Below, piece after piece: positions 13,345 through 30,950 of a stretch of 64,000 bases of DNA. The position numbers and the translations under genes are program-made. The first letter of the stretch is position 1, and the number at the start of each line of letters is the position of its first letter. The notes under the pieces are model-generated. The model saw nothing but the letters and a program-made list of their open reading frames with translations, was not told the DNA's origin and ran no database searches. The DNA is taken from positions 1,860,001 to 1,924,000 of the forward strand of contig NZ_CP041165.1 of the NCBI RefSeq assembly GCF_014905095.1, in the 5' to 3' direction. Source of the stretch: Sulfurimonas marina. GTDB taxonomy: Bacteria > Campylobacterota > Campylobacteria > Campylobacterales > Sulfurimonadaceae.

Positions 13345-14856
13345 TTAATAACCACTGTTGTATACAAAAGCCGAAATAAACTCTAACAACGGATTTACAG
13401 CTAAGAAAGCAAAAATTGTTCCTAGTACTGCTATACCAATGATAGTATTTAACGGTTTTGTAGCATTTGCTACATATAGCTGACCACCATCATTATCGAT
13501 AACTGGTTCTTTCATGAACATATATACAATTAGTTTTAAATAGTAGTAACCTGCGATCGCAGAGTTAAGAGCCATTATAAGTGCTAAGATCGTGTATCCG
13601 CTTGTTACTGCAGAAGAGATCATATATAGTTTACCCCAGAACAGTGCAAACGGTGGAATACCTGCTAAACTTAACATAAACAGTGCCATGATAAGTGCAC
13701 TAATAGGTGCAGTTTTGATCATACCCGCAAATTTATCAAATGAGTGATCAGACATCTGATGCTCACGTAGATGTTTTTGTCTTGAGATCCATAACATTGA
13801 GAATGAACCAAGGTTTACGAATGAGAACAGTACCCAGTATAAGAACAATGCAGTATTTGCTTGAGTTGTTCCGATTAGGATAGCTGCCATTACAAAACCA
13901 GCATGAGAGATTGAAGAGTATGCAAGCATACGTTTCACATCTGTTTGTACAAGTGCCCAAAGGTTAGAGATAGTCATTGTTACAACAACAAAGATGTAAA
14001 GAATAACTTCTAACCAAACGATATCACTGTGAACTAGGAATTCAAAAAGTCTCATTGTTACAACAAATGCTGCAATTTTTGGTACGATTGACATATATCC
14101 AGCCATTGCTGCAGAACTACCTTCATAAACGTCAGGTGCCCATGTATGAAACGGTACAAGTGAAAGTTTGAAACCAAAAGAAGCTAACATAAACACTACA
14201 GCTACAAGTACGTAACCGATATCTGCATAGTTGTTGTTTGCTAATACTAAAGCAATTTTATTGATCTCAACTGAACCAGTAAGTGCATAAAATACCATCG
14301 CACCGAAACTGTAAAAACCAGCTGCTAAGGCACCCATAGTAAAGTACTTAACTGCCGCTTCAAAAGATTTGTCACGGTTGTGCATAGCGATCATTGTATA
14401 AAGCGCTAAAGATGATGTTTCTAAACCTACAAAGATAAGGATTAAATTATCAGACGAAACCATAAACTGGAATCCACCGATCATAAACAGGAACAATGCG
14501 AAGAACTCGGGGTATGAGAACTCGTGGAAACGCTTGTGTGTTAATGCTAATGGAATAAACAGCATAGACGCTAAAACAATAATAAACTGAGAAAGTATCG
14601 CAAGTCCATCGATAAGCATTAAATCAAACACACCCATAGTGACACCACTTTGAGTAAAGATCTCACTTGAATCTACAAGTGCGATAAAATCCATTCCTAA
14701 GAATAATAAAGAAAGTACTACATATAAACTTTTATGAAGACCACCTTTAAATAGATCAACAACTAAAATTAATAGTGCTCCAATGATAGGTATTAACATT
14801 GGTGCTAGAGTCATTAAGTTTAACGACTCTACAGGGATATTTATTGGTGATAACAT
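13345..14856 (-). CDS. nuoN: NADH-quinone oxidoreductase subunit N
   Basis: The protein has 503 residues with about 14 transmembrane helices. It is a proton-channel subunit of the Mrp-antiporter type, with the glutamate-bearing LETSSLALY, the lysine-bearing LVPFHTWAPDVYEGS and the late PPFALFWGKLY motif. It forms part of the complex I membrane arm and translocates protons. The start overlaps the nuoM stop by one base, and pflA follows 34 nt downstream of its stop. Confidence 0.96.
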   Translation of the reverse strand: MLSPINIPVESLNLMTLAPMLIPIIGALLILVVDLFKGGLHKSLYVVLSLLFLGMDFIALVDSSEIFTQSGVTMGVFDLMLIDGLAILSQFIIVLASMLFIPLALTHKRFHEFSYPEFFALFLFMIGGFQFMVSSDNLILIFVGLETSSLALYTMIAMHNRDKSFEAAVKYFTMGALAAGFYSFGAMVFYALTGSVEINKIALVLANNNYADIGYVLVAVVFMLASFGFKLSLVPFHTWAPDVYEGSSAAMAGYMSIVPKIAAFVVTMRLFEFLVHSDIVWLEVILYIFVVVTMTISNLWALVQTDVKRMLAYSSISHAGFVMAAILIGTTQANTALFLYWVLFSFVNLGSFSMLWISRQKHLREHQMSDHSFDKFAGMIKTAPISALIMALFMLSLAGIPPFALFWGKLYMISSAVTSGYTILALIMALNSAIAGYYYLKLIVYMFMKEPVIDNDGGQLYVANATKPLNTIIGIAVLGTIFAFLAVNPLLEFISAFVYNSGY

Positions 14857-16418
14857 TAATGTACCTCCTTAATAGAAGATTTTGCAGCAATAACTATCTC
14901 TTTTGATTCAACAAGATTAGGGATTCTCTCTTTTGCTAAATCAGTTTGTGATTTGTTATGCATTAATTGAACAATTGCTTTTACAGAATTATCAATCGGC
15001 TCTAATACAGGTTTTGGATATACACCTAACCAGATTGTGATAACAGATAATGGGATTAATGCAATAAGTTCACGTTTATTTACATCTGGAAGATTTTTAT
15101 TCTCCTCTTTAATCTCATTACCAAAGAACATTTTTTTGTATGCTGATAACATATAGATAGCACCAACGATAATCGCAGTACCAGCAAGTAGTGTCAACAT
15201 ATGTGATTGTTGATAGAATCCAAGTAAACTTAAGAACTCACCAACGAAGTTGATAGTAAGTGGCATACCAACAGAAGCCATTAACATGATTCCAAAGATA
15301 GTTGCATATCTAGGCATAACATTCGCTAAACCACCAAACTCACTCATCATCTTAGTATGACGTCTGTCATAGATAACACCAACAAGTAAGAACAGTGCAC
15401 CTGAAACAACACCGTGTGCAATCATTAAGAAAATAGAACCAGAGATACCTTCAACGTTTAATGCAAAAGTACCAAGGATGATAACACCCATGTGTGAAAT
15501 TGAAGAGTAAGCAACAACTTGTTTAATATCTTCTTGAGCATATGCAACCATCGCTGTATAGATAATCATGATGATAGCAATAATTGCTATTGGCACCATA
15601 AAGAATGCTGATGCATCCGGGAACAGTGGTAATGAAAAACGGATAAACGCATATGTACCCATCTTAAGTAAAATAGCTGCAAGGATAACAGAACCGATAG
15701 TCGGTGCTTGACCGTGAGCATATGGTAACCATGTATGGAATGGGAACATTGGAACCTTGATTGCAAAACCGATAAAGAATGCTGCAAATAACCAAAGTTG
15801 GAATGTTTCCGGTAAGATAAGTCTATACCAGTCAAGTAGAGCAAAACTCCATACACCAGTAGCTTGGTAGTAGAAAAATGCCATGAAAAGCATACCTACA
15901 AGCATTACAAGTGAACCTGCAAATGTATACAGGAAGAATTTAATTGACGCGTAAACACGAAGTGGACCACCCCATGCACCAATGATATATACCATTGGTA
16001 CAAGTGAAAGTTCCCAGAACACGTAGAATACGATTGCATCAAGAGCTGCGAAAACACCAATCATAGTCATCTGTAAGAACAGTAATGTAATGATCATGTT
16101 CTTAACATTTGGAGTATCAGTAAGTGATGCTATACCAATCATTGTAAAGAATGAAGCTAAGATGATAATAAATAAAGAGATACCATCAACACCTAAAATA
16201 TAGTTAATACCATATGCAGGTACTAAAGGTAACTGCTCCATAAATTGCATACCAGAAACATTGCCGTCAAATGCAAACCATAGCCATAGTGAAAGTGCAA
16301 ACTCTACAATAGAAACACTCACACCAAAAGCACGGATACTCTCTTTTTGGATCATGAACCCTAAAATACCCGCTAATGCTGGAAAGAAAATTAAAATTGA
16401 TAAAATATGATCTATCAT
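14856..16418 (-). CDS. nuoM: NADH-quinone oxidoreductase subunit M
   Basis: The protein has 520 residues, a multi-spanning antiporter-like subunit. It has the conserved YVFWELSLVPMVYIIG (essential Glu), KVPMFPFHTWLPYAHGQAP (Lys and His of the channel) and YSSISHMG motifs. It is a proton-pumping subunit of the complex I arm between NuoN and NuoL. It lies one nt after nuoL within the nuo operon and overlaps nuoN by one base. Confidence 0.97.
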   Translation of the reverse strand: MIDHILSILIFFPALAGILGFMIQKESIRAFGVSVSIVEFALSLWLWFAFDGNVSGMQFMEQLPLVPAYGINYILGVDGISLFIIILASFFTMIGIASLTDTPNVKNMIITLLFLQMTMIGVFAALDAIVFYVFWELSLVPMVYIIGAWGGPLRVYASIKFFLYTFAGSLVMLVGMLFMAFFYYQATGVWSFALLDWYRLILPETFQLWLFAAFFIGFAIKVPMFPFHTWLPYAHGQAPTIGSVILAAILLKMGTYAFIRFSLPLFPDASAFFMVPIAIIAIIMIIYTAMVAYAQEDIKQVVAYSSISHMGVIILGTFALNVEGISGSIFLMIAHGVVSGALFLLVGVIYDRRHTKMMSEFGGLANVMPRYATIFGIMLMASVGMPLTINFVGEFLSLLGFYQQSHMLTLLAGTAIIVGAIYMLSAYKKMFFGNEIKEENKNLPDVNKRELIALIPLSVITIWLGVYPKPVLEPIDNSVKAIVQLMHNKSQTDLAKERIPNLVESKEIVIAAKSSIKEVH

Positions 16419-16419
16419 C

Positions 16420-18342
16420 TTACATTACTCCTAAACCTGATAAGATAGCTTTAATCTCATCAATATATCTAACTGCTAATCCAAAAACTACAGCTAAAGA
16501 TAGTAGTACTACAGTACCACCTACCATCCATTTTAACATCGTAGAAAGATTTCCACTTTGCATACCTCTAGTTTTCTCACCTGTACCATAAAGAATTCCA
16601 GCAATACCGTCAACTGTTGCATCAACAATTTTAAGATCAACTTTTTTCCAGAATAGTTCTGAGATCTCTCTATACGGCTCTACTATAAATTTTTCAAAAG
16701 CATGTGGAATATAGTATTGGTTGTATAACACTTTGTATACAAAACTTTGTTCCATTTTACTTGAACCATCTGGAACTGTTTTCCAAGATGCATATTTTTT
16801 ATAAGCAAAAAGTACCGCTAAAATAACAAATACTTGTGTACCTATTGTCATTACCCAATAAACTACAGGATGGTGAATATGGTATTCAATTGCCGGTAAT
16901 AAACCAGTTACCATCTCAAAATATGATAGTTTTAATGAACCTGCGATGATCGCTAATAAAAGTAATGGACTCATTGCAACAAGCATAAATTTATATGCTT
17001 CATGTGGGTGAATACCAAATAGTTTGTAGCGCTCTTCACCGTGGAAGATAAGAGCTACTAGTCTAAATGAATAGAACGCTGTTAAACCTGCAGTGATTAA
17101 TAACACTGAATAGATAATGTAATGGTGTTCAACAAATGCCGCTTCTAAGATTAAATCTTTTGAGAAGAATCCAGCAAGTGGGAAGATACCAGCTAACGCT
17201 ACTGAAGCAAGAGTCATCATAATGAATGTCCACTTCATAACCTTTTTAAGTCCACCCATTTTAAACGGATCAAGTTCGTCGTGCATTGCGTGCATAACAT
17301 TACCAGCACCTAAGAATAATAGTGCTTTAAAGAATGCGTGAGCCATAAGGTGGAAAAGTGCTACCCAGTATGCACCAAGACCAGCTGCTGCGAACATATA
17401 CCCTAACTGTGAAAGTGTAGAGTAAGCAATAATTCTTTTCATATCACGGTTAACAAGTGCCATAGATGCTGCAAAAATTGCAACAAATGCACCAAGCGAA
17501 GCGATGAATAATCCAACATTTGGAATTAAGTCATAAAGCTCGTTTGAACGGATAACTAAATATACACCAGCCGTTACCATTGTTGCCGCGTGGATAAGAG
17601 CCGAAACAGGAGTTGGACCTTCCATTGCATCTGCAAGCCATGTATGTAATGGGAACTGAGCTGATTTACCCATAGCACCGATAAATAAGAAGATACCAAT
17701 CCATACAAGTGTAGCTGTATCTAAGTTAGCCATTGCAGCGAACGCTTCGCTATATTGAAGTGTACCTGTGTTCCAGTATACTAAGAAGATACCGATTAAC
17801 ATACCAAGGTCAGCGATACGGTTCATAATGAACGCTTCGTTTGCTGCCCAAGTTGCGATCTCTTTGTGGTACCAGAATCCGATTAGTCCCCATGAACAAA
17901 GACCAACACCTTCCCAACCGATGAAAAGACCAGCGAAGTTGTCACTCATTACAAGAACCATCATAGAGAATACGAAAGCAGATAACCAAGCGAAGAATCT
18001 GTTAAAACCTGCATCGTGGTCCATATACCCGATAGAGTAGATATGTACAATTGTTGAAACAAGTGTTACAACCATCATCATAGTTACAGATACTTCATCT
18101 ACAACAAAACCAAACGGAATGTAAAGATCACCCGTAGCCATCCATGTCATCATCTCTACATGTACCGGCTCACCACCACCAAGTATGTGAGCTAAAAGAA
18201 TAGAACTACTTACAAATGATGTAAATATTAGTAAACTTCCTACAATACCAGTAAAAGTTTTCTTTGGTGTCGCTGTAAAAAGCGCTGAGAACAAAGAACT
18301 TACTAGTGGTGCAAAAAGTGCAATGTATAAATATTTTTCCAT
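16420..18342 (-). CDS. nuoL: NADH-quinone oxidoreductase subunit L
   Basis: The protein has 640 residues, the distal antiporter-like subunit. Diagnostic segments are GWEGVGLCSWGLIGFWY, AQFPLHTWLADAMEGPTPV and HAATMVTAGVYL, with the C-terminal extension that forms the long lateral helix and final anchor. It translocates protons at the tip of the membrane arm. It starts 3 nt after nuoK. Confidence 0.97.
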   Translation of the reverse strand: MEKYLYIALFAPLVSSLFSALFTATPKKTFTGIVGSLLIFTSFVSSSILLAHILGGGEPVHVEMMTWMATGDLYIPFGFVVDEVSVTMMMVVTLVSTIVHIYSIGYMDHDAGFNRFFAWLSAFVFSMMVLVMSDNFAGLFIGWEGVGLCSWGLIGFWYHKEIATWAANEAFIMNRIADLGMLIGIFLVYWNTGTLQYSEAFAAMANLDTATLVWIGIFLFIGAMGKSAQFPLHTWLADAMEGPTPVSALIHAATMVTAGVYLVIRSNELYDLIPNVGLFIASLGAFVAIFAASMALVNRDMKRIIAYSTLSQLGYMFAAAGLGAYWVALFHLMAHAFFKALLFLGAGNVMHAMHDELDPFKMGGLKKVMKWTFIMMTLASVALAGIFPLAGFFSKDLILEAAFVEHHYIIYSVLLITAGLTAFYSFRLVALIFHGEERYKLFGIHPHEAYKFMLVAMSPLLLLAIIAGSLKLSYFEMVTGLLPAIEYHIHHPVVYWVMTIGTQVFVILAVLFAYKKYASWKTVPDGSSKMEQSFVYKVLYNQYYIPHAFEKFIVEPYREISELFWKKVDLKIVDATVDGIAGILYGTGEKTRGMQSGNLSTMLKWMVGGTVVLLSLAVVFGLAVRYIDEIKAILSGLGVM

Positions 18343-18345
18343 ATT

Positions 18346-18654
18346 TTATCCCCTCATACTTGCCATAGTTTCTAAGTCAACATTGTTATGACGTTTGTGC
18401 CATACAATTAAAAGACCAAGACCAACTGCAACTTCTGAAGCAGCAATAGCAATAACAAAAAATGCAAACATCTGACCAGTTAAGTCAGCATAGTAATGTG
18501 AAATCGCAGCAAAAGCAATATTTACAGAGTTTAGTAAAATCTCAGTTGCGAAAAACAGTAGTAACAGGTTCTTTCTTTTCATTACACCCACTAAACCAAT
18601 AGCGAATAGAATTGTAGATAGAACAAGATAGTGATTTAAACCTATTTCCATCAT
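18346..18654 (-). CDS. nuoK: NADH-quinone oxidoreductase subunit K
   Basis: The protein has 102 residues and three transmembrane helices with the buried glutamates of NuoK (FFATEILLNSVNIAF, and SEVAVGLGLLI). Two adjacent ATGs begin the gene. The first overlaps the nuoJ stop by 4 nt, and either may be used. It is part of the proton path next to the quinone site. Confidence 0.96.
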   Translation of the reverse strand: MMEIGLNHYLVLSTILFAIGLVGVMKRKNLLLLFFATEILLNSVNIAFAAISHYYADLTGQMFAFFVIAIAASEVAVGLGLLIVWHKRHNNVDLETMASMRG

Positions 18655-19220
18655 GAAAGCACCTTTTTATTTTCTTCATATTCACGAATCTCATCAGCAT
18701 CCATTAATGTCAATGAAAGATCCATTTTCTTACCAGCTAAGATAATACCTGCAATCATAGCTACTAAAAGCATTACAGCAGCTACTTCAAACGGGATAAG
18801 ATATTTTGTAAATAATACAACACCGACTTGTTGTGTATTTCCAACATTATCAAGTACCGGAGCAAAAGCCATCATATTGTCAGACACAATTGGAGCTGCA
18901 AAAATTGCAACAACTAAAATAGCTGCCAATGTAGCCATACCAACGATGATATATTTATTCCCCTGCTTCTCTTTAACTTCACGTGTAGTATCAAAGAACA
19001 TCATACCAAACGCGTAAAGAGCCATTACAGCACCTGTATAAACGATAATTTGTATCGCACCTAAGAAATCAGCACCAAGGATAAAGAAAAATGCCGATAT
19101 AAAAATCATTCCCGCTGCTAATGCAGTTAATGCATATAACGCTTGAGATGTCGTTACCGTGATAAAGAACATCGCAATTGTTAAAAATGCAAACAAGTAA
19201 AACGCTACCGCTTCAAACAT
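18651..19220 (-). CDS. nuoJ: NADH-quinone oxidoreductase subunit J
   Basis: The protein has 189 residues with five predicted helices. It has the NuoJ signature IQIIVYTGAVMALYAFGMMFF in its third helix, the segment that deforms during coupling. It is a complex I membrane-arm subunit, 12 nt downstream of nuoI and overlapping nuoK by 4 nt. Confidence 0.95.
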   Translation of the reverse strand: MFEAVAFYLFAFLTIAMFFITVTTSQALYALTALAAGMIFISAFFFILGADFLGAIQIIVYTGAVMALYAFGMMFFDTTREVKEKQGNKYIIVGMATLAAILVVAIFAAPIVSDNMMAFAPVLDNVGNTQQVGVVLFTKYLIPFEVAAVMLLVAMIAGIILAGKKMDLSLTLMDADEIREYEENKKVLS

Positions 19221-19232
19221 AATCCAAACTCC

Positions 19233-19850
19233 TTAATATGCTAGAGGTGTTTTCTTAACACGCTCATCTTCATGTGGTGTAATAGCACCGAAACCTTCAA
19301 ACTCTTGTTGAGCTTTCGCTTTCATAGTGTCTATCGGTGTTAACATATCATCATAAAGGATGAAATGCTCTCTCTGGTCACTTGCATTCTCATACTCACC
19401 ACCGTGTGTAATAGCAAGCTCAGGACAAACCTCTGCACAATAACCACAGAAGATACAACGACCTAAGTTGATTGAATACTCTCCAACCTCTTTTCTTTGG
19501 TTCTCATCGTATCTTGTCTCCATACGGATACAGTTAGAGATACAGATCTTTTCACAAAGACCACAACCGATACATCTCTCAGCATCACTTTCCCAAAGAC
19601 GCTTCATTTCATGAACTGCACGGTATCTTGGACCGATTGGCATCTTTTCAGCCGGATATTGTACAGTGTGAATGTCAGCTTTGAACATCTCACGAAGTAC
19701 AACCCAAAGACCTACAAAAAGCTCCCCTTTAAAAGTTCTTTTTGCTACACGCTTGAACTTACCCCAAGGAGTTGTGGGATAATCTTCAATATCTACTAAA
19801 TAGTAGCCACCTTCTGCTACATTTCTATCATTAAATGGTTCCATATTCAT
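19233..19850 (-). CDS. nuoI: NADH-quinone oxidoreductase subunit I (two [4Fe-4S])
   Basis: The protein has 205 residues. Two ferredoxin motifs, [11 protein letters not shown] and [12 protein letters not shown], bind clusters N6a and N6b, which pass electrons towards NuoB. An amphipathic N-terminal stretch attaches it to the membrane arm. A C-terminal tail of about 45 residues beyond the ferredoxin core is charged. The gene lies 11 nt after nuoH. Confidence 0.96.
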
Positions 19851-19861
19851 CCCATATCCCC

Positions 19862-20851
19862 TTAAAACATCATCACAAAACCAGTGATTACAACATTAAT
19901 CACTGCGATTGGCATAAGCACTTTCCAACATAACCACATAAGTTGATCCGGTCTTACATCTGGCCATGCAGCTCTAGTCCACAGGAAGAAGAAGAAAAAG
20001 AATGCAACTTTAGCAAGTAAACCAAGAGCTCCTAGTAAACTACCGTCACCGTATCCACCTAAGAAGATAAGAGGGATAACAAATGAGATAAAGAACATAT
20101 TTGCATATTCACCGATGAAGAAAAGACCCCATCTCATACCAGAGTACTCAGTACCGAAACCATCAATAATTTCGTGATCATTTGCAATTAAGTGGAACGG
20201 TGTACGACCAGTTTCAGCAAAAGCTGCAATCCAGAAAAGTACAAATGCTACAGGCTGTGACCAAACGATCCACTCTGAAATTCCACCTGCTTGGTATTCA
20301 TTAAAATCAATTAATGAAAGTGAACCAACCATCATAATTGGAGCTAAAATAGATAAACCTGTTACAACCTCATAAGAGATAAACACAGCAGCCGTACGAG
20401 CAGCAGAGATAAGTGAAAACTTATTTGCTGAAGCCATACCACCAAGAAGCGGTCCGTATAGACCAACAGCCATAATACCTAAGATGTATAAGATACCGAT
20501 ATTGATATCTGAAACAATCGGATGAACTTCATATCCAGCAATTGTAAAAGACGGTAAAAATGGAATAGCAGCTGCAGCCATAAATGCAGTAGCCGCTGTA
20601 ATTACCGGAGCTATTTTAAAGATTTTTGCAACAACGCCAGTTGGGATAATATCCTCTTTTGTAAAAAGTTTAATACCATCCGCTGCAACTTGCAATAGAC
20701 CGTATGGACCAACATTCATAGGTCCAAGACGGCGTTGCATAAATGCTAATATCTTTCTTTCGAAGTATGTACCAATACCAGCTAATGCTGAAAACACTAG
20801 TAAAATTACAACAACTTTAATTATCGTTTCTATTAAATATGCGCTATCCAT
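19862..20851 (-). CDS. nuoH: NADH-quinone oxidoreductase subunit H
   Basis: The protein has 329 residues with eight helices. It carries [14 protein letters not shown] near the N-terminus, the quinone-cavity loop [27 protein letters not shown] (split here only for description: [10 protein letters not shown], then the EIIDGF and EYSGM parts) and a C-terminal DQLMWLCWK. It forms the quinone-binding heel of complex I. It starts 3 nt after the second nuoG, in place of the single nuoG-nuoH junction of other bacteria. Confidence 0.95.
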
Positions 20852-20854
20852 ACA

Positions 20855-23353
20855 CTACACCTTTTCTATCGAAGCTGAATTAAAACGATAACCGTCAAAT
20901 AAAGCCTCTGAATTTAATTTTGAATCAAAAGTAGGAAGAACTACTATTGAACCTGAGATTTTGTTATCACTAACTACAGCAGCTGTAAGCTCCCCTTTAT
21001 TAGTTTTAACTTTAACTGTATCACCCTCATTAAAGTCTGAATTAGATAAGAACTCTTCAGACATATATACACCGCTTACTTCATCAAGTTCAGTAGCTTT
21101 GTTAGTAAAATCATTAAATTGTCTTACCGGATTAGCAAGGTAAATTATACTACCTTCTAACTTGTCCTCGCTGAATTTAGCAACAGTTTCATCGCCAGTT
21201 GGAGTAACTGCTACATTTTCTAACACGTAACCTCTTACCTCTGTTCCGTCATTTTCATAATGGTTTGGAAGAGTATCAAATTCAACTGCTTTAAACCCTT
21301 TTTCAACAGGAAGTTTTACAGTGTAGTTAATTACATGCTCTACAGTTTTTTCAGAGTTAAGTTCAAGTGCATTAGCGATATCATTTAACTCATAACCGTT
21401 GTATGATACTGCTGCATTTGTAGGGTTAACACGTTTATTGATAGATGTTAATGTACCCTCTTGCTGATTCATAGCCGGCATATCTAGATCACCGTCACCT
21501 AAAGCTGAAAGTGTGTAGTCACCTTTTACGTTGTAACCGATAGTATAAGAACCGGCTGTATCATCAAGTTCACAAATTAAGCTTACACCTAAACTATTTG
21601 TAAGTGCAGGAATCATTGTTACTTCAAATTTAGAGTATTTCTCAATAAGTGCAACAAGTCTCGCTAGATTTCTAGAGTTTGGATGCGTATAAAGATCAGG
21701 TCCAACCATAAGTGCAAAAGTCTCTTTTTTCTTTAGGTTTTTCTCTAAATTTTCCATAAATTTATCATCAGCACCAAGAAGTTCTAATAGTTTGTTTTCA
21801 TCAACAGTAACCTCTTTAGAAACTTTCTTAGGTACCATCTTAGATTTTTCTACTTCTACTTCTTCCTCTTCACCTGTCTCTTCATTAACTTTCATCTCTT
21901 TTACGATCTCTACAACTTTTTCTTTAATTGTCTCTTCAACCGTAATAGTTTTTTCAGAATGGAAAGATGCTAAGTACTCAGTAATATCGCTTGGCATTGC
22001 TGCTTTATCACCAAATAGATCAAGTACTAAATAAAGTGCAATCTCTTCTTGAAGTGGAGCATGTTCAACCGTCATAATAGACTTACCAAGACCTTCAATA
22101 ATAGGATCTTTAACAGGGTGGAAATAAAGTCCCGCACCTTTATTTACAGTTAAAGAGTTATTGAGTGCATATCTTGCATTTGGATTATCTGCTTTTAGTG
22201 CTGAACCAACAGAAACGATAAAGTTTGAATCCATTGTTACTTTTAAATCAGCACCATATAATGATGTTCCACTTACTTCAGAGTAATCTTTTAAGAAAGC
22301 TTGGAACGCTTTTGCTTCATCATTAACAAGTTTGTAACCAAATTTTTCCTTCATAGATTGAAGCAGGTATGCCTCTTCATTTGTGATCGTAGATGTAAAC
22401 TTGATAGTATCTGCTTTTTTGAAAGCTTCTATCGTCTTTGCAAATGCTGCTTCATCTTTTGTTGCAGTTGCATTTTGATAATCAAAACCATAACGACCTG
22501 CACCACAGAGAGATACATAGTTCCACTCATTCATTACACGATAGATCTTTTCAGTATCATCATGTAAGCTTGTGTGTTTTACATCATAAGAGATCTGACA
22601 TCCCGCAGAACAGTGACCACAAGTTGCAGGAACTTGTTTTAATTCCCATGCATTTGATTTGTACATAAAGTGAGTATCAACGAGCGCTCCAACAGGACAT
22701 ACAGCTGCACACTCACCACAAGATGTACAATCAAGTTCATCAGTACCGTTAGTTAAACCGATAACCGATTTGTTTAACTTGTTCCACATTGCATAAGCAT
22801 CTTTCGGCATTGTCTCTTTAAACTCTGCATCGATACCTTCAGCACCGCGAGCAATAGTTTTTAAAGAGTTGTCACCGATCATATCTTTACATGCAGTTAC
22901 ACATCTTTCACAAACGATACATAAGCCCGGATCGTAGTGTAAGTGTCCCCAGTCATGAGCACTTCTATCTACATCTTTGATCGCATAGCTTTGAGAATCT
23001 ACTTCAATCTCTAAAGTATAGTTTTGCAGTTCACACTCACCCGACTGATCACAAACACCACACTGTAATGGATGGTTTACATCGTAAACTTCCATAATTG
23101 CACGGCGCTCTTTTTCAATGTTTTCAGTCGTAGTTGTGATATTCATCCCATCTTTTGCTTTAGCGTTACAAGCATATACTTGTTTCCCATCAGCTTCAAC
23201 AAGACAAATACGACAAGCTAGAGTTGGAGAACATCTCGTTAGATAACATATTGCCGGTATAAAAATATCGTTCGCACGAGCAGCGTTGAGTATATACTCA
23301 CCCTCTTGCGTCTCAATCTCACGACCATCAATATTTATACTGATTTTACTCAT
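20855..23353 (-). CDS. nuoG: NADH-quinone oxidoreductase subunit G, second copy (832 aa)
   Basis: A full NuoG with all cluster ligands: N1b (ICYLTRCSPTLACRICLVEA and a later Cys), N5 (HPLQCGVCDQSGEC), two ferredoxin motifs (CIVCERCVTAC, CTSCGECAAVCP) and the N7 site (CGHCSAGC with SLCGAGRYG). A molybdopterin-oxidoreductase-like body follows, without a cofactor ligand that I can see. Residues about 461-521 are a Glu/Lys/Val-rich insertion absent from the other copy. The length is near that of Campylobacter NuoG. It overlaps the first nuoG stop by 4 nt (ATGA). How two NuoG proteins are used by one complex is not known. Confidence 0.93.
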   Translation of the reverse strand: MSKISINIDGREIETQEGEYILNAARANDIFIPAICYLTRCSPTLACRICLVEADGKQVYACNAKAKDGMNITTTTENIEKERRAIMEVYDVNHPLQCGVCDQSGECELQNYTLEIEVDSQSYAIKDVDRSAHDWGHLHYDPGLCIVCERCVTACKDMIGDNSLKTIARGAEGIDAEFKETMPKDAYAMWNKLNKSVIGLTNGTDELDCTSCGECAAVCPVGALVDTHFMYKSNAWELKQVPATCGHCSAGCQISYDVKHTSLHDDTEKIYRVMNEWNYVSLCGAGRYGFDYQNATATKDEAAFAKTIEAFKKADTIKFTSTITNEEAYLLQSMKEKFGYKLVNDEAKAFQAFLKDYSEVSGTSLYGADLKVTMDSNFIVSVGSALKADNPNARYALNNSLTVNKGAGLYFHPVKDPIIEGLGKSIMTVEHAPLQEEIALYLVLDLFGDKAAMPSDITEYLASFHSEKTITVEETIKEKVVEIVKEMKVNEETGEEEEVEVEKSKMVPKKVSKEVTVDENKLLELLGADDKFMENLEKNLKKKETFALMVGPDLYTHPNSRNLARLVALIEKYSKFEVTMIPALTNSLGVSLICELDDTAGSYTIGYNVKGDYTLSALGDGDLDMPAMNQQEGTLTSINKRVNPTNAAVSYNGYELNDIANALELNSEKTVEHVINYTVKLPVEKGFKAVEFDTLPNHYENDGTEVRGYVLENVAVTPTGDETVAKFSEDKLEGSIIYLANPVRQFNDFTNKATELDEVSGVYMSEEFLSNSDFNEGDTVKVKTNKGELTAAVVSDNKISGSIVVLPTFDSKLNSEALFDGYRFNSASIEKV

Positions 23354-25593
23354 GATACCACTCTTTCTATCTTGGATTTTGCGAATCTATATGCACTCAT
23401 TGTTTCTGTATCAAATACAGGGTTAAGTGCAATAGTTCCTTTTAACTCACTATCAAGTTTAAAAGTTCTTGTTAATGTTTTTGAACCAAATGTGATCGTA
23501 ACTTTGTCACCATCAGAGATTCTTGCAGCTGTTGCGAACTGTTGTGAACCTCTTAATGCATCATCTTTTGGTAATTGTGTTGTTTTGTTTGTATAGTTGT
23601 TAAACTGTAAAACAGGATTAGCGTTATAGATAATAGTACCGTTATACTCCGGTAACTCCTCTACATCTTCCAGTTTTGCTGTTGCTTCAACTTCAACTTC
23701 ATCTAAAAGGTAACCTCTTATGTCGTCACCTAACGGGCTTAGGAAGTTTTCTAAGTCATCAAACTCTACAGCTTTAAAGCCTGTAATATTTGCTAACTCT
23801 TTCGTATAGTCGATCGTATTCTTCGCTTCTAAACCTAAAGCGTTTGCAATGTCATTAAGTGTATAACCTTCAAAACCTAATGCAACGTTTAAAGGTAATA
23901 CTCTATTGTCAATACTTACAACAGATCCTTCTTGTTGGTTAAGTGCAGGTACTGCTAAATCAGCAGAGCCTAAAGATGAGATAATAAAGTCACCTTGTTC
24001 GTTATAACCAACTACATTAGCAATGTTCTCATCAGCATCTAAATCACAGATCATGCTTACACCAGTAGTATTCACTTCAGATGGAACTACTACAAGTGAG
24101 AAATTTGTATATTTTTCAATAGTTGCTGCTAATTTTGCAATATTCTCTGCACGCTCATGTGCTAAAACATCACTACCGATTACAAGTACGTTATTTTTTG
24201 CACGAGCAAAAGATTTTTTCATAAATTTCAGCTCATCGTCACCTACATTGCTCTCTGCAGACAGGTTCCCAAGGTCTAAATTATCTAAAAATGCTTTTGT
24301 ATCTTCATCAACATCAACATTTTCTAAAAGCTCATTAGCGATAAGTGCAAGTACACCCTCTTCAGAACCCGCTTCATATTTCATAAACTGTGTAACTGTG
24401 TTTTGTAATAATGCATCTTCGATCGGGTGTGCATATACAATTTTTGCACCGTTGTGACGAGATGCAGTTGTTAGTGCATATCTTACACCCGGATTATCAG
24501 TTGCTATTCTTGAACCAAGTACAATTACAGCCTCAGCTTGTTTAATAGCATCTAATGAACCGCTGTGGTGTAATTTACCGCTTACAGAGCTGTATGCTTT
24601 CATAAAGTCAGCATATTGTTTTGCATCTTCATTGAAAAGTTTTAGACCAAGTGTCTCTTTTAACTTTTGTAAAATGTACGCCTCTTCATTTGTAATCATA
24701 GAACTAAAACGGATAGCACCTGCACTTTTTACAGCCTCTACAGCCTTGTTGAATGCAGCTTCATCACTTTTTTGTTCATTGTTAAAATCAAATCCGAAAC
24801 GCCCAGCTCCACATAATGAAGTAAATTCAAAATTGTTTTTTACTCTATGGATAGCATCGTCACCGTTTAGACCAGTGTGTTTTACTTCATACTCTAATGA
24901 ACACCCTGCTGAACAGTGTGCACAAGTTGATGGTACACGTGAAAGTTCCCATGCATTTGCTTTGTATTTAAAGTCAGTGCTTACAAGTGCCCCAACCGGA
25001 CAAACTGCAATACACTCACCACAATATGTACAGTCTAATGTTTCAGAGTTTTTAGGGATAATAGTTGAGCTGTATCCACCAAAATAAACGTCAATTGCAT
25101 CATCACCGATTGACTCATTACAAACGTGTGTACACTTTTCACACATGATACATAAAGCCGGATCATAAGAGATAAGTCCCCAGTTTTTCACAGTCTTATG
25201 TTGCTCACGTGCAGAGAAGCTTTGAGAATCAACTCCAAACTCTAAAGTCATGTTTTGCAGATCACACTCACCTGACTTATCACATACACCACACTCTAAC
25301 GGGTGGTTTACATCATAAAGTTTCATGATGTTTACACGCTCTTGCTCAAGCTCTTTAGAGTTTGTTTTTACCTCAATACCTTCAGTTGGAGGAGTATTAC
25401 ATGAAAGTACGAAACCCTCAACCCCTTCAACCTCTACAGAACAGATACGGCAAGATGCACAAGGTGATGTTTTAGAGATATAACACATAGTAGGGATATA
25501 GATCCCTGCTTTGCGAGCTGCCTGTAAAATAGTCTCACCTTTTTGCGCTTCTACAAGTTGACCGTCGATTTTAAAATTAATTGTTTTACTCAT
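23350..25593 (-). CDS. nuoG: NADH-quinone oxidoreductase subunit G, first copy (747 aa)
   Basis: The protein has 747 residues and is clearly paralogous to the next gene along its length. N1b ligands lie in MCYISKTSPCASCRIC plus VLSCNT, N5 in HPLECGVCDKSGEC, the two ferredoxin sites in CIMCEKCTHVC and CTYCGECIAVCP, and N7 in CAHCSAGC with SLCGAGRFG. Nothing is lost compared with the second copy, so it is not decaying. It lacks that copy's charged insertion. It directly follows the NuoF/GltD chimera (9-nt gap), which suggests that this copy contacts the electron-input module. That is inference. Confidence 0.93.
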   Translation of the reverse strand: MSKTINFKIDGQLVEAQKGETILQAARKAGIYIPTMCYISKTSPCASCRICSVEVEGVEGFVLSCNTPPTEGIEVKTNSKELEQERVNIMKLYDVNHPLECGVCDKSGECDLQNMTLEFGVDSQSFSAREQHKTVKNWGLISYDPALCIMCEKCTHVCNESIGDDAIDVYFGGYSSTIIPKNSETLDCTYCGECIAVCPVGALVSTDFKYKANAWELSRVPSTCAHCSAGCSLEYEVKHTGLNGDDAIHRVKNNFEFTSLCGAGRFGFDFNNEQKSDEAAFNKAVEAVKSAGAIRFSSMITNEEAYILQKLKETLGLKLFNEDAKQYADFMKAYSSVSGKLHHSGSLDAIKQAEAVIVLGSRIATDNPGVRYALTTASRHNGAKIVYAHPIEDALLQNTVTQFMKYEAGSEEGVLALIANELLENVDVDEDTKAFLDNLDLGNLSAESNVGDDELKFMKKSFARAKNNVLVIGSDVLAHERAENIAKLAATIEKYTNFSLVVVPSEVNTTGVSMICDLDADENIANVVGYNEQGDFIISSLGSADLAVPALNQQEGSVVSIDNRVLPLNVALGFEGYTLNDIANALGLEAKNTIDYTKELANITGFKAVEFDDLENFLSPLGDDIRGYLLDEVEVEATAKLEDVEELPEYNGTIIYNANPVLQFNNYTNKTTQLPKDDALRGSQQFATAARISDGDKVTITFGSKTLTRTFKLDSELKGTIALNPVFDTETMSAYRFAKSKIERVVS

Positions 25594-25602
25594 CCAGCCC
25601 CC

Positions 25603-27639
25603 TTATGCCTGTACCATAGCGATATAATAACAACGCATACAACGCTCAGCTTCAGTTAAAGCCTGGTCTTGAGTAAATCCAAGATTTACCTCTTTATTGT
25701 TATCTTTTCTTACATCAACATCAAGTACTTCTGCTTGTTCACGAGGAAGTCCCGGAAGCCAACCTGTGATTTTTTCATTTTTGTCATACACTTTTAACTT
25801 CATTAAGTGATCTTCCATGATCTCTTCATCTGTTAAAGTGATTTCGCCATCTTCTACATATCTAGACATTACAGAAGCTGCACGTTTAGCCTGCCCTACT
25901 GCATTAACGATAGTCATTGGACCATACTCACAGTCACCTGAAGCAAAAATACCTTTACGTGATGTCATATAGTCTTTACCGTTTGTTTTGATAGTTGCCC
26001 ATGATGTCATCTCGATATCCCACTCTTCAGGAAGAAGATCAAGATCAGCCGATTGAGAAACCGCAGGGATTAAATAATCTGCTTCAATAGTATATGATGC
26101 ACCCTCAATTTTTTCTAAGTTAGGACGACCACCGTCAGGATCCGGTACTAATTCAAATTTATCAACTAATAACTCTGTTAAAACATCATTTTCATCAGTT
26201 GTAATTTTGTTTACCGCAGAGTGGAATAGGAATTCTACACCCTCTTCAACAGCTTCATGATACTCTTCATACGTAGTATTACGGATAATAGTTTTCTCAT
26301 CACGACGATAAACCATGTACACTTTTTTCGCACCTGCACGGATTGAACAACGTACAACGTCCATAGATGTAAAACCACCACCTACACACACTACTGTTTT
26401 ACCAGTAAGGTCTACGTGATCAGTTGGAAGCATCTGCTTCTCTTGTACCTCTTTTGGTGTTTTAATGTCAAACTTCTCATAAAGGTTTACCCAGTCAAGG
26501 AAATCAATCGCTCCCCAGTAACCTTTAATCTCTTCACGCTCGTTATCACAACGAACTTTTTTAGAGATACGAGTACCCGTTGCTACCATAACTGCATCGT
26601 AATCTTTTTCGAATTGACGCATATCATCAGCTGTAATCTTACGGTTAGTGATAAAGTTTACACCCATATCACGAACACATTCGATATCTTCTTGGTACTT
26701 ATCCCAAGGCATACGATACTCAGGTACACCAACAGTTACCTCACCACCAAGAACCGGAAGCTCTTCATAACAATCAACTTCAATACCTTCAGCAGCTGTA
26801 TAGTAAGCAGTTGTAAGACCAGCCGGTCCTGCACCGATAACTGCAATTTTCTTCCCTGTAGGAGCTTTTTTCTCCATAGGGTGGAAGAAATCATAACCAT
26901 GATCAGTCTCATAATCAGCACCAAGACGTTTAAGTGCCATGATCGAGATAGGCTCATCAAGGTTTGTTCTACGACATGCATCCTCACAAGGGTGTGGACA
27001 TACACGACCACAAGTGTGAGCTAATGGCATAGTTTGACGAGTTGCTTCAAGTGAATCATCAAAACGTAAATCTCTTACACCTTCGATATATCCAGGGATA
27101 TCAACGTGTGCAGGACATGCGTCTGTACACGGTGCTGTGATTTTTGCGATATAACTAGCATCTGCATTGTAATGTTTTGATGGCTTCTTCTCGTTAATAC
27201 ACTCAAGGAAAGTATCTTCAAAGTGTGTCATCAGATCTAAAATTGGATTTGGAACTGTTTTACCAATCTCACATTTAGATGTGATCTGCATACTTTTTCC
27301 GATCTCTTTTAAGTGGTCTAAATCAGCTACTTCACCCTCACCGCGAGCAATTTTGTCAAGTTGATCGTATAAGATACGTCCACCCCAACGTCCCGGTGCA
27401 CAACGTCCACATGCTTCAGAGTACTCTTGGTACTGCGCAGCATACTCCATAGCAAGACGGATAACATCTACATCTTCGTCAAAAAGTGTAACACCGTCCC
27501 AACCGATGAATGCACGTGAAGATCTATGATCGTCATACTGTGCCGGCAGGTTATAAGCTGATTCTTCCCACTCTTCTTGAGGTTTACCGACATTATTTAC
27601 CAGTTCACCATTCCAAGTAGAAAAATATACTTTGCTCAA
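25603..27639 (-). CDS. NuoF C-terminal domain fused to a GltD-type FAD/NAD(P) oxidoreductase
   Basis: The protein has 678 residues and a TTG start with AGGA 8 nt upstream. Residues 60-145 match the NuoF C-terminal domain that holds cluster N3, but the ligand set is EACGRCAPGR: C77 and C80 are present, the third Cys is Gly83, and C123 is the distal ligand. The NADH/FMN domain of NuoF is missing. From residue 165 the protein is GltD-like: Fe-S cysteines C171, C175, C210, C214, C218 and C222, an FAD fold (VIGAGPAGL, 267-275), an NAD(P) fold (CVGGGFTSMD) with the YRRDE motif associated with NADPH, and a C-terminal FASGDCEYG. Its place at the nuoF position suggests it feeds electrons into NuoG. 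NADPH, ferredoxin or flavodoxin are candidate partners. Confidence 0.85.
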   Translation of the reverse strand: MSKVYFSTWNGELVNNVGKPQEEWEESAYNLPAQYDDHRSSRAFIGWDGVTLFDEDVDVIRLAMEYAAQYQEYSEACGRCAPGRWGGRILYDQLDKIARGEGEVADLDHLKEIGKSMQITSKCEIGKTVPNPILDLMTHFEDTFLECINEKKPSKHYNADASYIAKITAPCTDACPAHVDIPGYIEGVRDLRFDDSLEATRQTMPLAHTCGRVCPHPCEDACRRTNLDEPISIMALKRLGADYETDHGYDFFHPMEKKAPTGKKIAVIGAGPAGLTTAYYTAAEGIEVDCYEELPVLGGEVTVGVPEYRMPWDKYQEDIECVRDMGVNFITNRKITADDMRQFEKDYDAVMVATGTRISKKVRCDNEREEIKGYWGAIDFLDWVNLYEKFDIKTPKEVQEKQMLPTDHVDLTGKTVVCVGGGFTSMDVVRCSIRAGAKKVYMVYRRDEKTIIRNTTYEEYHEAVEEGVEFLFHSAVNKITTDENDVLTELLVDKFELVPDPDGGRPNLEKIEGASYTIEADYLIPAVSQSADLDLLPEEWDIEMTSWATIKTNGKDYMTSRKGIFASGDCEYGPMTIVNAVGQAKRAASVMSRYVEDGEITLTDEEIMEDHLMKLKVYDKNEKITGWLPGLPREQAEVLDVDVRKDNNKEVNLGFTQDQALTEAERCMRCYYIAMVQA

Positions 27640-27648
27640 AACAAATTC

Positions 27649-27876
27649 CTAATCTTTTTTAACAACGATAGTCCAGTCAACTTCGTTGAATTTTAGTGAG
27701 TTGTATAACTCCCAACCACACTCTTTTACTAAGTCTGCACTTCTTTGTACAGGTGTAAAGTCGCCAATTTCAAAAAGAAAAATAAGTGTCTCACTTGGCT
27801 TGTGAGTTTCACCTAAAATCTCTTTCATACGAGGTTCAAAATTATCTTTTAAATGTCTTAGATCATATCTTTTCAT
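27649..27876 (-). CDS. Small NuoE-position subunit without Fe-S ligands
   Basis: The protein has 75 residues. It replaces the 24-kDa NuoE between nuoD and the chimera, as the small Cj1575c-type protein does in Campylobacter. It has a single cysteine (KECGWEL), so it cannot bind the N1a [2Fe-2S] cluster. The fold looks alpha/beta with a core strand EVDWTIVVKK. The ATG overlaps the nuoD stop by one base and the next gene follows after 9 nt. It is probably an adaptor for the modified input module. Confidence 0.7.
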   Translation of the reverse strand: MKRYDLRHLKDNFEPRMKEILGETHKPSETLIFLFEIGDFTPVQRSADLVKECGWELYNSLKFNEVDWTIVVKKD

Positions 27877-29117
27877 TATCTATCTACCTCACCAAATACG
27901 ATATTTGTTGTACCAATAATTGAAACAACATCCGGAATATAGTGACCAGGTAAAAGGTCAGTTAAAATTCCTGTATGCCAGAATGAAGGCGCACGTAATT
28001 TAAGTCTGTACGGGTATGGTCCACCTTGAGAATTGATGTAGTATCCAAGTTCACCTTTTGGAGATTCAGTTGGAATGTATACTTCACCTACAGGTGGTCT
28101 CATACCTTGTGTTACAAGTACAAAGTGTTGCATTAAAGAGTAGTTTTGAGTCATGATATCCAGCTTAGGAGCTGAGATATATTTAGGCGCATGAGCCATT
28201 AACTCAGTTTGTCCCTCTTTCACACATCTCTCATACATCTCTATTGTTTGATAAAGGATCTTCGCAGATTCTCTCATCTCTTCCATATAGATTCTATAAC
28301 GCGCGAAGTTATCACCTTTGTCAGAGAACGGTACGTTAAACTCTACTTCATCGTAAAGCTCATACGGCTCCTCTTTACGGATATCCCATGCTACGCCAGA
28401 AGCTCTTAGCATTGGACCTGTACAACCCCAAGAAAGTGCCATCTCTGTTGAGATTACACCAACATCTTCCATTCTCATTCTCCAGATACGGTTAGAATCT
28501 AATAGATCTTCGTAATCTTTGATGTTTTGTGGAAGCTTGTCTAAGAAAGTTCTTAGTTGGCTTAAGAAATCATCTTGGATATCTAAAGGAACTCCACCGA
28601 TACGAATAGCAGCGTGTGTTAAACGAGCACCACAGTATCCTTCGATAATATCCATTAGGTATTCTCTTTCACGGAATGCAAATAAGAAGATAGTCATCGC
28701 ACCGATATCAAGAGCCGTTGTCGCTAACCAGAAAAGGTGAGACATAAGACGGTTGATCTCTAAAAGCATCATTCTAATTACTTTTGCACGACGTGGAACT
28801 TCAAGTCCAACCAGTTTTTCAACTGCAAGTGCAAAACCATAGTTGTTTGAAGATGAAGCGATATAATCCATACGGTCAGTAGTAGGCATAAACTCATTAT
28901 AGATCATATTTTCAGCCATCTTCTCCATACCACGGTGAAGGTATCCAACATCTGGATGTGCTTTTGTAATTTGCTCTTGTTGAAGGTGAAGCATAAGTCT
29001 TAACTGTCCGTGAGCAGACGGGTGCTGTGGACCGAAGTTTAAGATAAGCTCATTATCTTCTCTGTCAAATGTAATATTTTCAAAAAACGGTGTTAATCTG
29101 TTTTTTACTTGTGCCAT
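27876..29117 (-). CDS. nuoD: NADH-quinone oxidoreductase subunit D
   Basis: The protein has 413 residues, the 49-kDa subunit. It carries [14 protein letters not shown], which lines the quinone cavity, [10 protein letters not shown], and [14 protein letters not shown] near the C-terminus. It is homologous to the large subunit of NiFe hydrogenase without the metal site. Together with NuoB it forms the quinone reduction site. It is separate from NuoC (12-nt gap), not fused. Confidence 0.97.
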
Positions 29118-29129
29118 ATTTATACCACC

Positions 29130-29936
29130 CTATCTTTGCGGATCATCAATAACTTTTGATGACTCTTTTGTATATTTTTTGATCATGAAAACACCACCCT
29201 CTTCTTGGTAGTTTTGAACAGTTCTTTCCATATCGTCAGTGATTTCAGTACCTTTTGGAACTTCAAAACCAAGACGTGCGAAACGCTCAGAATCGTATCT
29301 GTCGATTCTTGCAGTGTCACGAATTTCAGGCCCGATAATATCGCGTGCTTCTTTTCCGTAAATTTTATCAACTTCATACCATGCAGCGAACTCATCACCT
29401 TCAAGCGGGTATGTTTTACGAAGTGGGAAACCTTGCCAGTCATAAGGCATAAGGATACGCTTCATAAATGGGTGTCCATTTGCTTCGATACCGAACATAT
29501 CGTACATTTCACGCTCAGACCAGTCAGCTGAACGGAAAAGTTTTTCAACAGAATCAACAGCTTGACCCTCTTTAATGAAATACTTGATACGGATACGTTT
29601 ACGTTTTGTCATAGAAAGCATTTGGTAGAAGATCTCAAAAGTACCGTCTTTTGCTAACCAATCGATCGCACTTAACTCTGAAAGTTGAGTATATTCTAAC
29701 TCGTCTTTCATAAGTTCAAGTACACCGTAAATATCTTGAGGCTGAATGTAAACAACCATTTGTTCAACTTGAATATATGCATCACTTACTTCAAACTTCG
29801 CTTTGATAGCTGCAAGATCAGCTGCAAATACTGCATCATCTTCAACAGGAGTTTTAGGAACCTGCGGTGCTACATAATATCTGTCTGTGTAATATGCTTT
29901 TGCTTGTACATCATCTTTTGGTGTATATGCTCTCAT
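29130..29936 (-). CDS. nuoC: NADH-quinone oxidoreductase subunit C
   Basis: The protein has 268 residues. The 30-kDa signature SADWSEREMYDMFGIEANGH is followed by RILMPYDWQGFPLRKTYP. Before it is an N-terminal extension of about 45 residues that is proline- and charge-rich. It is a peripheral-arm structural subunit without cofactors. The ATG shares one base with the nuoB stop (TAATG-type coupling). Confidence 0.95.
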   Translation of the reverse strand: MRAYTPKDDVQAKAYYTDRYYVAPQVPKTPVEDDAVFAADLAAIKAKFEVSDAYIQVEQMVVYIQPQDIYGVLELMKDELEYTQLSELSAIDWLAKDGTFEIFYQMLSMTKRKRIRIKYFIKEGQAVDSVEKLFRSADWSEREMYDMFGIEANGHPFMKRILMPYDWQGFPLRKTYPLEGDEFAAWYEVDKIYGKEARDIIGPEIRDTARIDRYDSERFARLGFEVPKGTEITDDMERTVQNYQEEGGVFMIKKYTKESSKVIDDPQR

Positions 29937-30445
29937 TACATTAACCTTTTAGCTTTTTGTGCTTTACCCGCTTTTTGCTCACGGATCTTTTGTTGTAATA
30001 ACATCACACCGTACTGAAGTGTTTCAGGACGAGGCGCACAACCTGGAAGATATAGATCAACAGGGATGATACGGTCACAACCTTGAACAGTTGCATAAGT
30101 GTTGAACATACCACCTGTATTTGCACATGAACCCATAGAGATAACCCATCTAGGCTCTGTCATTTGATCATAAAGACGTTTAATGAACTCAGCGTGTTTT
30201 TTTGTAAGTGTACCTGCTACGATCATAACATCAGCCTGACGTGGAGATGCACGGAAGATCGTACCGTAACGGTCAAAGTCAAAACGAGATGCACCAGAAG
30301 CCATCATCTCGATACCACAACAAGCAAGACCATAAGTCAATGCCCAAAGTGAGTTCGAGCGACCCCAGTTTACCACTTTGTCAATTGATGTAAGTGCTAC
30401 CGGTAATCCACCGTCTTGTGTATAGTTTACTTTATGTTGTGCCAT
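29936..30445 (-). CDS. nuoB: NADH-quinone oxidoreductase subunit B ([4Fe-4S] N2)
   Basis: I use the ATG at 30443-30445 because GGAG lies 9 nt upstream, which gives 169 residues. Cluster N2 ligands are visible as LACCGIEMM (tandem cysteines), the Cys in [10 protein letters not shown] and PGCAPRPE. N2 is the final cluster before quinone. The coding sequence overlaps the nuoA 3' end by 19 nt in another frame, so the two are tightly coupled. Confidence 0.96.
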
Positions 30446-30816
30446 TCTAGCGCTCCTTTTTTCCATGCATATACAAAACCGATTGCTAATAATAGGATGA
30501 ACATAATCATCTCAGCAAATCCAAACCATCCAAGTACTTTAAAATCTACTGCCCAAGGAAACATAAATACTATCTCTACATCAAATAGTAAAAATAAAAG
30601 TGCAAATAGATAAAACTGAGGTGAAACTCTATTTGGTTGTTTCGTTACCTCAGGTCCACATTCATAAACTGAAAGTTTGATTTTTTCAGTGTCTTTAGCA
30701 GCTAAAGCACGACTCGCAAGTCTTGCGATTGTAGTCGTTGCAATAAAAGCACCAAATGTTATAACAAAAAGTACAAATACCCCAAAATACGGATTTGCAG
30801 TACTAATATGCTCCAT
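30427..30816 (-). CDS. nuoA: NADH-quinone oxidoreductase subunit A
   Basis: I use the ATG at 30814-30816, preceded by AGGTAGG, which gives 129 residues, the usual NuoA size. Longer in-frame versions lack support. Three transmembrane helices are evident, with the conserved YECGPEV loop and [18 protein letters not shown]. It is the first gene of the 15-gene nuo operon. Confidence 0.95.
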
Positions 30817-30950
30817 ATAACCTACCTTTTTAAATAAGAAGTTACCCCTAAGAATGTAACTCTTGTTTATATATTTGTTTTCCAACTTCTAAAAACACTC
30901 TATGTTATAAAAACAAAATGCTCTTTAGAGTTAGAAAAAACAGTTACTGC

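Follow-up and report, generated by a model that had tools for sequence, protein, structure and literature searches.

In Campylobacter jejuni and Helicobacter pylori, complex I is driven by flavodoxin, and nuoE and nuoF are replaced by cj1575c/cj1574c and HP1264/HP1265. To our knowledge, all complexes I of known structure have one NuoG, and SfrAB, an NADPH oxidoreductase of Geobacter sulfurreducens, is not encoded in a nuo operon. The genome paper on Sulfurimonas denitrificans (Sievert 2008) may already mention an unusual nuo cluster, and the open-access literature searched contained nothing relevant on a complex I with two NuoG, or on NuoG in Sulfurimonas. Cj1574c reportedly mediates the transfer of flavodoxin electrons to complex I and is needed for flavodoxin oxidation (PMC4178425), and HP1264 is reported to bind FMN and to contain no conserved Cys (PMC6269979). 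SfrB is related to GltD/NfnB and SfrA to NuoG (PMC7483475), and the nuo genes of Nautilia profundicola include no NuoG (PMC2628731).

The window, a 64,000-nucleotide stretch of the Sulfurimonas marina genome, contains one 15-gene operon in the order A-B-C-D-E'-F'-G1-G2-H-I-J-K-L-M-N, with all genes on the minus strand. It runs from NuoA (30427..30885; a 129-aa core, with the listed ORF starting at an upstream TTG), NuoB (29936..30466; overlapping NuoA, and its true start may be internal), NuoC (29130..29936) and NuoD (27876..29117) through E' (27649..27876; 75 aa), F' (25603..27639; 678 aa), G1 (23350..25593; 747 aa) and G2 (20855..23353; 832 aa) to NuoH (19862..20851), NuoI (19233..19850; the carrier of N6a/N6b), NuoJ (18651..19220), NuoK (18346..18654), NuoL (16420..18342), NuoM (14856..16418) and NuoN (13345..14856), the last assigned by position and sequence. 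A-D and H-M all score above their NCBIfam cut-offs, indicating that the complex I core is intact. The input module of NuoE (thioredoxin-fold 2Fe-2S) and NuoF (FMN, NADH) is not present in the operon; E', a member of the PF16514 family, and F', with its NADPH-type GltD module, are found instead. The genome comprises 2.26 Mb on one contig and is 99.9% complete; single-family searches found one NuoH, one F' and at least one short flavodoxin gene in it, and the NuoF FMN domain (Complex1_51K) could be found nowhere in the 2.26 Mb.

The original prediction of two adjacent full-length NuoG genes, paralogous end to end and each with every cluster ligand, held for the copies of the window. Both ORFs are intact, neither being broken, and they overlap by 4 nt (23350-23353). 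Aligned globally, the two proteins share 332 identical residues out of 740 (45%), with 53% identity in the Fe-S half, and the score of 1537 compares with -128 +/- 25 for shuffled sequences. The NuoG equivalog model NF006305, which is of the epsilonproteobacterial type and the best family for G1, matched G1 with 924 bits and G2 with 1175 bits (cut-off 591). The AF2 model of G1 (pLDDT 89) has a fold matching NuoG and NAD-formate dehydrogenase, and its TM-scores of 0.71-0.76 by query length against E. coli, Thermus and mycobacterial NuoG point to a molybdopterin-type C-terminal fold. An acidic/lysine-rich low-complexity insert at residues ~475-535 of G2 (window 21750-21930) is missing from G1.

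All 20 ligands of five predicted Fe-S clusters are present in each copy, namely N1b (CCCC), N5 (HCCC), N7 (CCCC) and two ferredoxin motifs, on the evidence of alignments covering 39 G1 and 74 G2 sequences. The G1 ligands are C37/C48/C51/C65 for N1b and H97/C101/C104/C110 for N5, followed by the ferredoxin-like motifs (C148/C151/C154 plus C158; the second being CxxCxxCxxxCP) and the N7 motif C-x2-C-x3-C...C, after which comes the molybdopterin-type C-terminal half without the cofactor; the ligand alignment gives the same five predicted clusters for G2. The ferredoxin motif pair is predicted to hold two [4Fe-4S] sites, N4/FS4A and FS4B, in a pairing like that of [FeFe]-hydrogenase. NuoG of the mitochondrial type has one cluster fewer than the five predicted for G1 or G2. 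The ligands of N1b, N5 (with its His ligand) and N4 are complete in all aligned sequences (39/39 G1 and 74/74 G2).

F', defined by Pfam, NCBIfam and an alignment of 39 sequences, is a NuoF C-terminal (N3) domain fused to a GltD-type Fe-S/FAD/NAD(P) module, with the NuoF C-terminal part at residues ~30-150, Fer4_20 at ~168-250, the GltD-type FAD/NAD(P) part at ~260-595 and a CxxC at the C-terminus. In the N3 domain, C77, C80 and C123 are conserved in 39/39 sequences and there is no conserved third Cys; F' has CGRCAPG in place of the CGxCxPC of NuoF, with Gly at the third N3 Cys in 13/13 sequences displayed. Fer4_20 conserves six of its eight cluster Cys, the first two being missing, so that with the third N3 Cys also absent the internal Fe-S wiring of F' is uncertain. 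StnC shows a similar partial loss of Fer4_20 cysteines (PMC7483475). The FAD/NAD(P) Rossmann domains of F' are of GltD type (Pyr_redox_2, 1.6e-27), with GltD/Nfn-type chains matching at E values down to 1e-95. The second Rossmann motif contains 'YRRDE', whose RR presumably resembles that of NADPH-binding GltD/NfnB, and the nucleotide partner of F' would probably be NAD(P)H, with NADPH favoured. E' belongs to the HP1264 family of H. pylori (2LXR), as indicated by its PF16514 match and HP1264 fold.

The composition of F' raises the question of whether F' and G1 make up an independent soluble enzyme, an NADPH oxidoreductase like SfrAB, Stn or Nfn, whose genes are merely sited in the nuo operon. 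Among solved structures, those nearest to F' are Stn- and Nfn-type chains (PDB 9bov, E 2e-102, and the similar 8oh5, E 1e-91), and SfrAB and Stn are built of F'-like and NuoG-like parts (PMC7483475). Nevertheless, G1 is the sister of the G2 of complex I in the tree and fits the NuoG family NF006305 best, which makes a separate enzyme quite doubtful. The same tree gives no support to another possibility raised at the outset, that one copy is part of a separate formate or hydrogen enzyme, since G1 and G2 are nearest each other.

About 79 nuo loci from Campylobacterota genomes were sorted into three operon types: a long type with E' F' G1 G2, a short type with E', a protein of ~215-350 aa and G2, and a canonical type with a fused CD, E, F and a single G of ~460-500 aa. 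F' is present in 81 of 298 species genomes and E' in 242. All 39 extracted F' operons contained a full-length G1, and no extracted operon had a full-length G1 without F'. A further 80 loci from named genomes agreed, G1 directly following F' in 74 of the 75 with room, once overlapping start codons, which affected six loci, are allowed for. These loci belong to Sulfurimonas, Sulfuricurvum, Sulfurovum, Nitratiruptor, Nitratifractor, Hydrogenimonas and MAGs labelled Arcobacter or Helicobacteraceae, and the best 80 matches of the F' search of named genomes were all Campylobacterota. G2 is the copy retained in every E'-type operon, long or short.

Several individual loci deserve mention. L155 could be dismissed as an exception to the pairing of F' and G1, with both NuoG lying elsewhere in its genome, and so could L143, whose genome has both NuoG; here the nuo operon is split after G1 (L143:10001-14292; G298:C8:46993-49368), with A-D, E', F' and G1 on one contig and G2 beside NuoH on another. 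One MAG locus (L116:1-10506) contains F' and a lone NuoG followed directly by NuoH, reflecting real loss, recombination between G1 and G2 or assembly collapse. An apparent natural G1-G2 fusion in L063 (G167:C1:476431-481038, a 1544-aa open frame) was rejected as a frameshift, natural or from assembly, the first ~310 residues of G2 lying in another frame. Genome G174 has two complex I operons, one of the short E' type and one of the canonical type with a ~500-aa NuoG (L049, L068). Some long operons of family-level group f2 (g42) have enlarged subunits, such as L060 (F' 962, G1 1046 and G2 1012 aa), and F' open frames of ~900-940 aa occur in G283, G286 and G294. In L038, genes for a NuoD-like (361 aa) and a NuoI-like (181 aa) protein lie directly upstream of nuoA and probably represent a group 4 hydrogenase.

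The protein of 215-350 aa encoded between E' and G2 in short operons matches G1 and not NuoF. It corresponds to G1 residues ~340-505 plus ~640-747, so that the Fe-S half and the middle segment are both gone; the aligned relics contain no conserved Cys, no Pfam model matches them, and NCBIfam gives merely a hint of NuoG. In one locus (L045:4211-5263), E' and the relic form a single 351-aa ORF. In the predicted model of this fusion (pLDDT 83), 266 residues of the relic part align with formate dehydrogenases (Z 22.8, 2.8 A), and the wide target span of ~550 residues is as would be expected from an excised middle domain. By gene order compared with the published C. jejuni operon (PMC4178425), the relic appears to sit where Cj1574c/HP1265 (annotated 'NuoF') is found, and the 14 genes cj1566c-cj1579c seem to correspond one for one to A B C D E' S G H-N. 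The 'NuoF' of the Campylobacter/Helicobacter type would then be a remnant of G1 and not a NuoF; no account of an origin of the relic from NuoG was found in the open-access literature searched. The relic persists among the complex I genes without F' and can be fused to E', which also argues against a soluble F'-G1 enzyme.

G2 forms one clade (support 100), with every G1 on the other side of the tree. The phylogeny proposed earlier for dating the duplication places the G1/G2 split once, before at least nine family-level groups diverged. Tandem paralogues are common in general, so that a redundant or recent duplication without special role might be considered, but no result of this analysis favours it, the split is older than the divergence of those groups and both copies keep their ligands across them, leaving this explanation hardly credible. 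A concatenated operon tree of B, D, H and I requires six changes between long and short types, five of them forced by well-supported branches, and when G1 and relics are placed in one tree, relic sequences from f7, f4 and f2 (family-level groups are numbered and carry no taxonomic names here) group with the G1 of their respective families. A topology uniting every relic in one clade was rejected (p-AU 0.014), and a single origin of the f3, f10 and f7 relics was not (p-AU 0.37); since the relics of f3 and f10 are not separable from those of f7, few origins can be counted as firmly established. Sequence comparison thus firmly supports that the relic arose two or more times, and four to six origins are likely. 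The long type is probably ancestral, given that the relic is a double deletion of G1, the root of the tree not being fixed. Judged from these sequences, G1 shrinks after the loss of F' to a cluster-free relic instead of vanishing.

Cluster losses also occur within the full-length copies. FS4B is lost from G1 in two genera of f4 and in f9 (39 G1 aligned), and N7 of G2 is lost in several families (74 G2 aligned); since each is missing in some lineages, neither cluster could be an obligatory link. N7 of G2 was ruled out as a link between G1 and G2, as it is absent from the long types of f7, f9 and L075 and present in short types of f2. The N7 ligands of G2 are replaced (NSxN/NSSH and similar) in L075, f3, f7, f9 and f10 and kept elsewhere.

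Taken together, these data suggest one complex I in which a second NuoG lengthens the input arm, with F', G1 and G2 in series, a reading to which we assign a probability of roughly 0.6. The original prediction had offered an enlarged arm on one complex, with two NuoG in series or in parallel, or two complexes with different arms. The single NuoH, the lack of NuoF, G2 kept everywhere with clusters and the relic kept beside it favour the first option over the second, and a series arrangement fits better than a parallel one, with a single NuoI in the operon and only G2 always present. The split operon of L143's genome, with both NuoG retained, was counted in favour of one complex, and the MAG locus with F' and a single NuoG (L116) was counted against it.

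A possible but unlikely alternative is that the arms are interchangeable, one A-D/H-N core taking either G2 (with E' and flavodoxin) or G1-F' (with NAD(P)H) to give two forms of complex I. It would be consistent with the full ligand sets in both NuoG, the one core encoded and the presence of a flavodoxin gene. However, G1 as a mere competitor gives no reason for keeping its cluster-free half beside G2 in several families, the 4-nt overlap of G1 and G2 suggests coupled translation at a fixed ratio, and Cj1574c, the positional counterpart of the relic, works with the complex and not against it (PMC4178425).

In the favoured arrangement of a single complex with two NuoG in series, G2 would be the ordinary core NuoG that passes electrons to NuoI, as suggested by its being the sole cluster-bearing NuoG in short operons. 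The Fe-S half of G1, which is kept only together with F', most likely carries F', and F' could exchange electrons with NAD(P)H, NADPH being the probable form. Docking on G1 would be through the N3-type domain of F', in the way that NuoF docks on NuoG. The C-terminal half of G1 most likely docks on the same G2-containing complex, adjoining E' and G2, since it is kept without F' beside both, and its contact with E' is supported by the E'-relic fusion in L045. With one NuoI per complex, the electrons of G1 would pass via G2. The likeliest wiring, reversible, could thus be written as NAD(P)H <-> F' (FAD, Fe-S) <-> G1 <-> G2 <-> NuoI N6a/N6b <-> NuoB N2 <-> menaquinone, with E' (FMN) as a putative second port of flavodoxin type. 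Flavodoxin-dependent lineages may have dropped F' and the Fe-S half of G1 while keeping E' and the docking half. As the relic is cluster-free, flavodoxin electrons there would have to enter via the FMN of E' or straight through G2.

Where chemolithotrophs deliver electrons at the level of the quinone, the flow may be mostly reverse, with the proton motive force driving NADPH formation. For NAD(P) reduction, sulfide oxidisers depend on electron transport in reverse (PMC11406935), and long operons occur in groups named for such metabolism, which together suggest this direction. A bifurcation or confurcation, in which the FAD of F' or the FMN of E' splits electron pairs among NAD(P)H, flavodoxin/ferredoxin and menaquinone, might be expected from the two predicted flavin sites and from GltD/NfnB-type FAD sites, which bifurcate in Nfn and are proposed to do so in Stn (PMC7483475), but with two Fer4_20 cluster Cys missing from F' it seems very unlikely. 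A rather improbable extension of the serial arrangement is a three-way hub, in which two NuoG in series and ports at the FAD of F' (NADPH) and the FMN of E' (flavodoxin) would let the complex trade electrons with NADPH, flavodoxin/ferredoxin and menaquinone at the same time, either driving this exchange with the proton motive force or being driven by it, and possibly with flavin-based bifurcation within complex I.

If the serial arrangement is true, the input wire of complex I can be lengthened by duplication, providing a further class of electron input and a possible answer to how Campylobacterota of vents and sulfidic zones, pushing electrons uphill from quinol, make NADPH. The 'NuoF' at the Cj1574c/HP1265 position would gain both an origin and a role, as a cluster-free docking remnant of G1.

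Among known systems, the 11-subunit complex I without NuoEFG of Nautilia profundicola is likewise from Campylobacterota and has no NuoE/NuoF. SfrAB, compared by description only, offers a similar pair of a GltD-like SfrB and a NuoG-like SfrA. The Sporomusa-type Nfn (StnABC) also joins a GltD-type FAD/NADPH domain to NuoG-like Fe-S domains, but there the GltD-like and NuoG-like parts are in one chain, NuoE/NuoF are present, and the enzyme is soluble and without a membrane arm, whereas in the window G1 is a protein of its own, F' bears a NuoF C-terminal domain and both are encoded in a nuo operon. Canonical complex I of E. coli, Thermus and mitochondria shares the NuoG fold, the N1b/N5/N4 ligands and all core subunits, but has one NuoG and a NuoE/NuoF module with FMN and NADH; the window operon lacks NuoE/NuoF and has a second NuoG, and each of its NuoG is predicted to hold an additional [4Fe-4S] site. 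Complex I of C. jejuni and H. pylori has the same order of A-D, E' (PF16514), G2 and H-N, with the relic where cj1574c sits; the ~250-aa protein encoded there stands in place of the F' and full-length G1 of the window operon.
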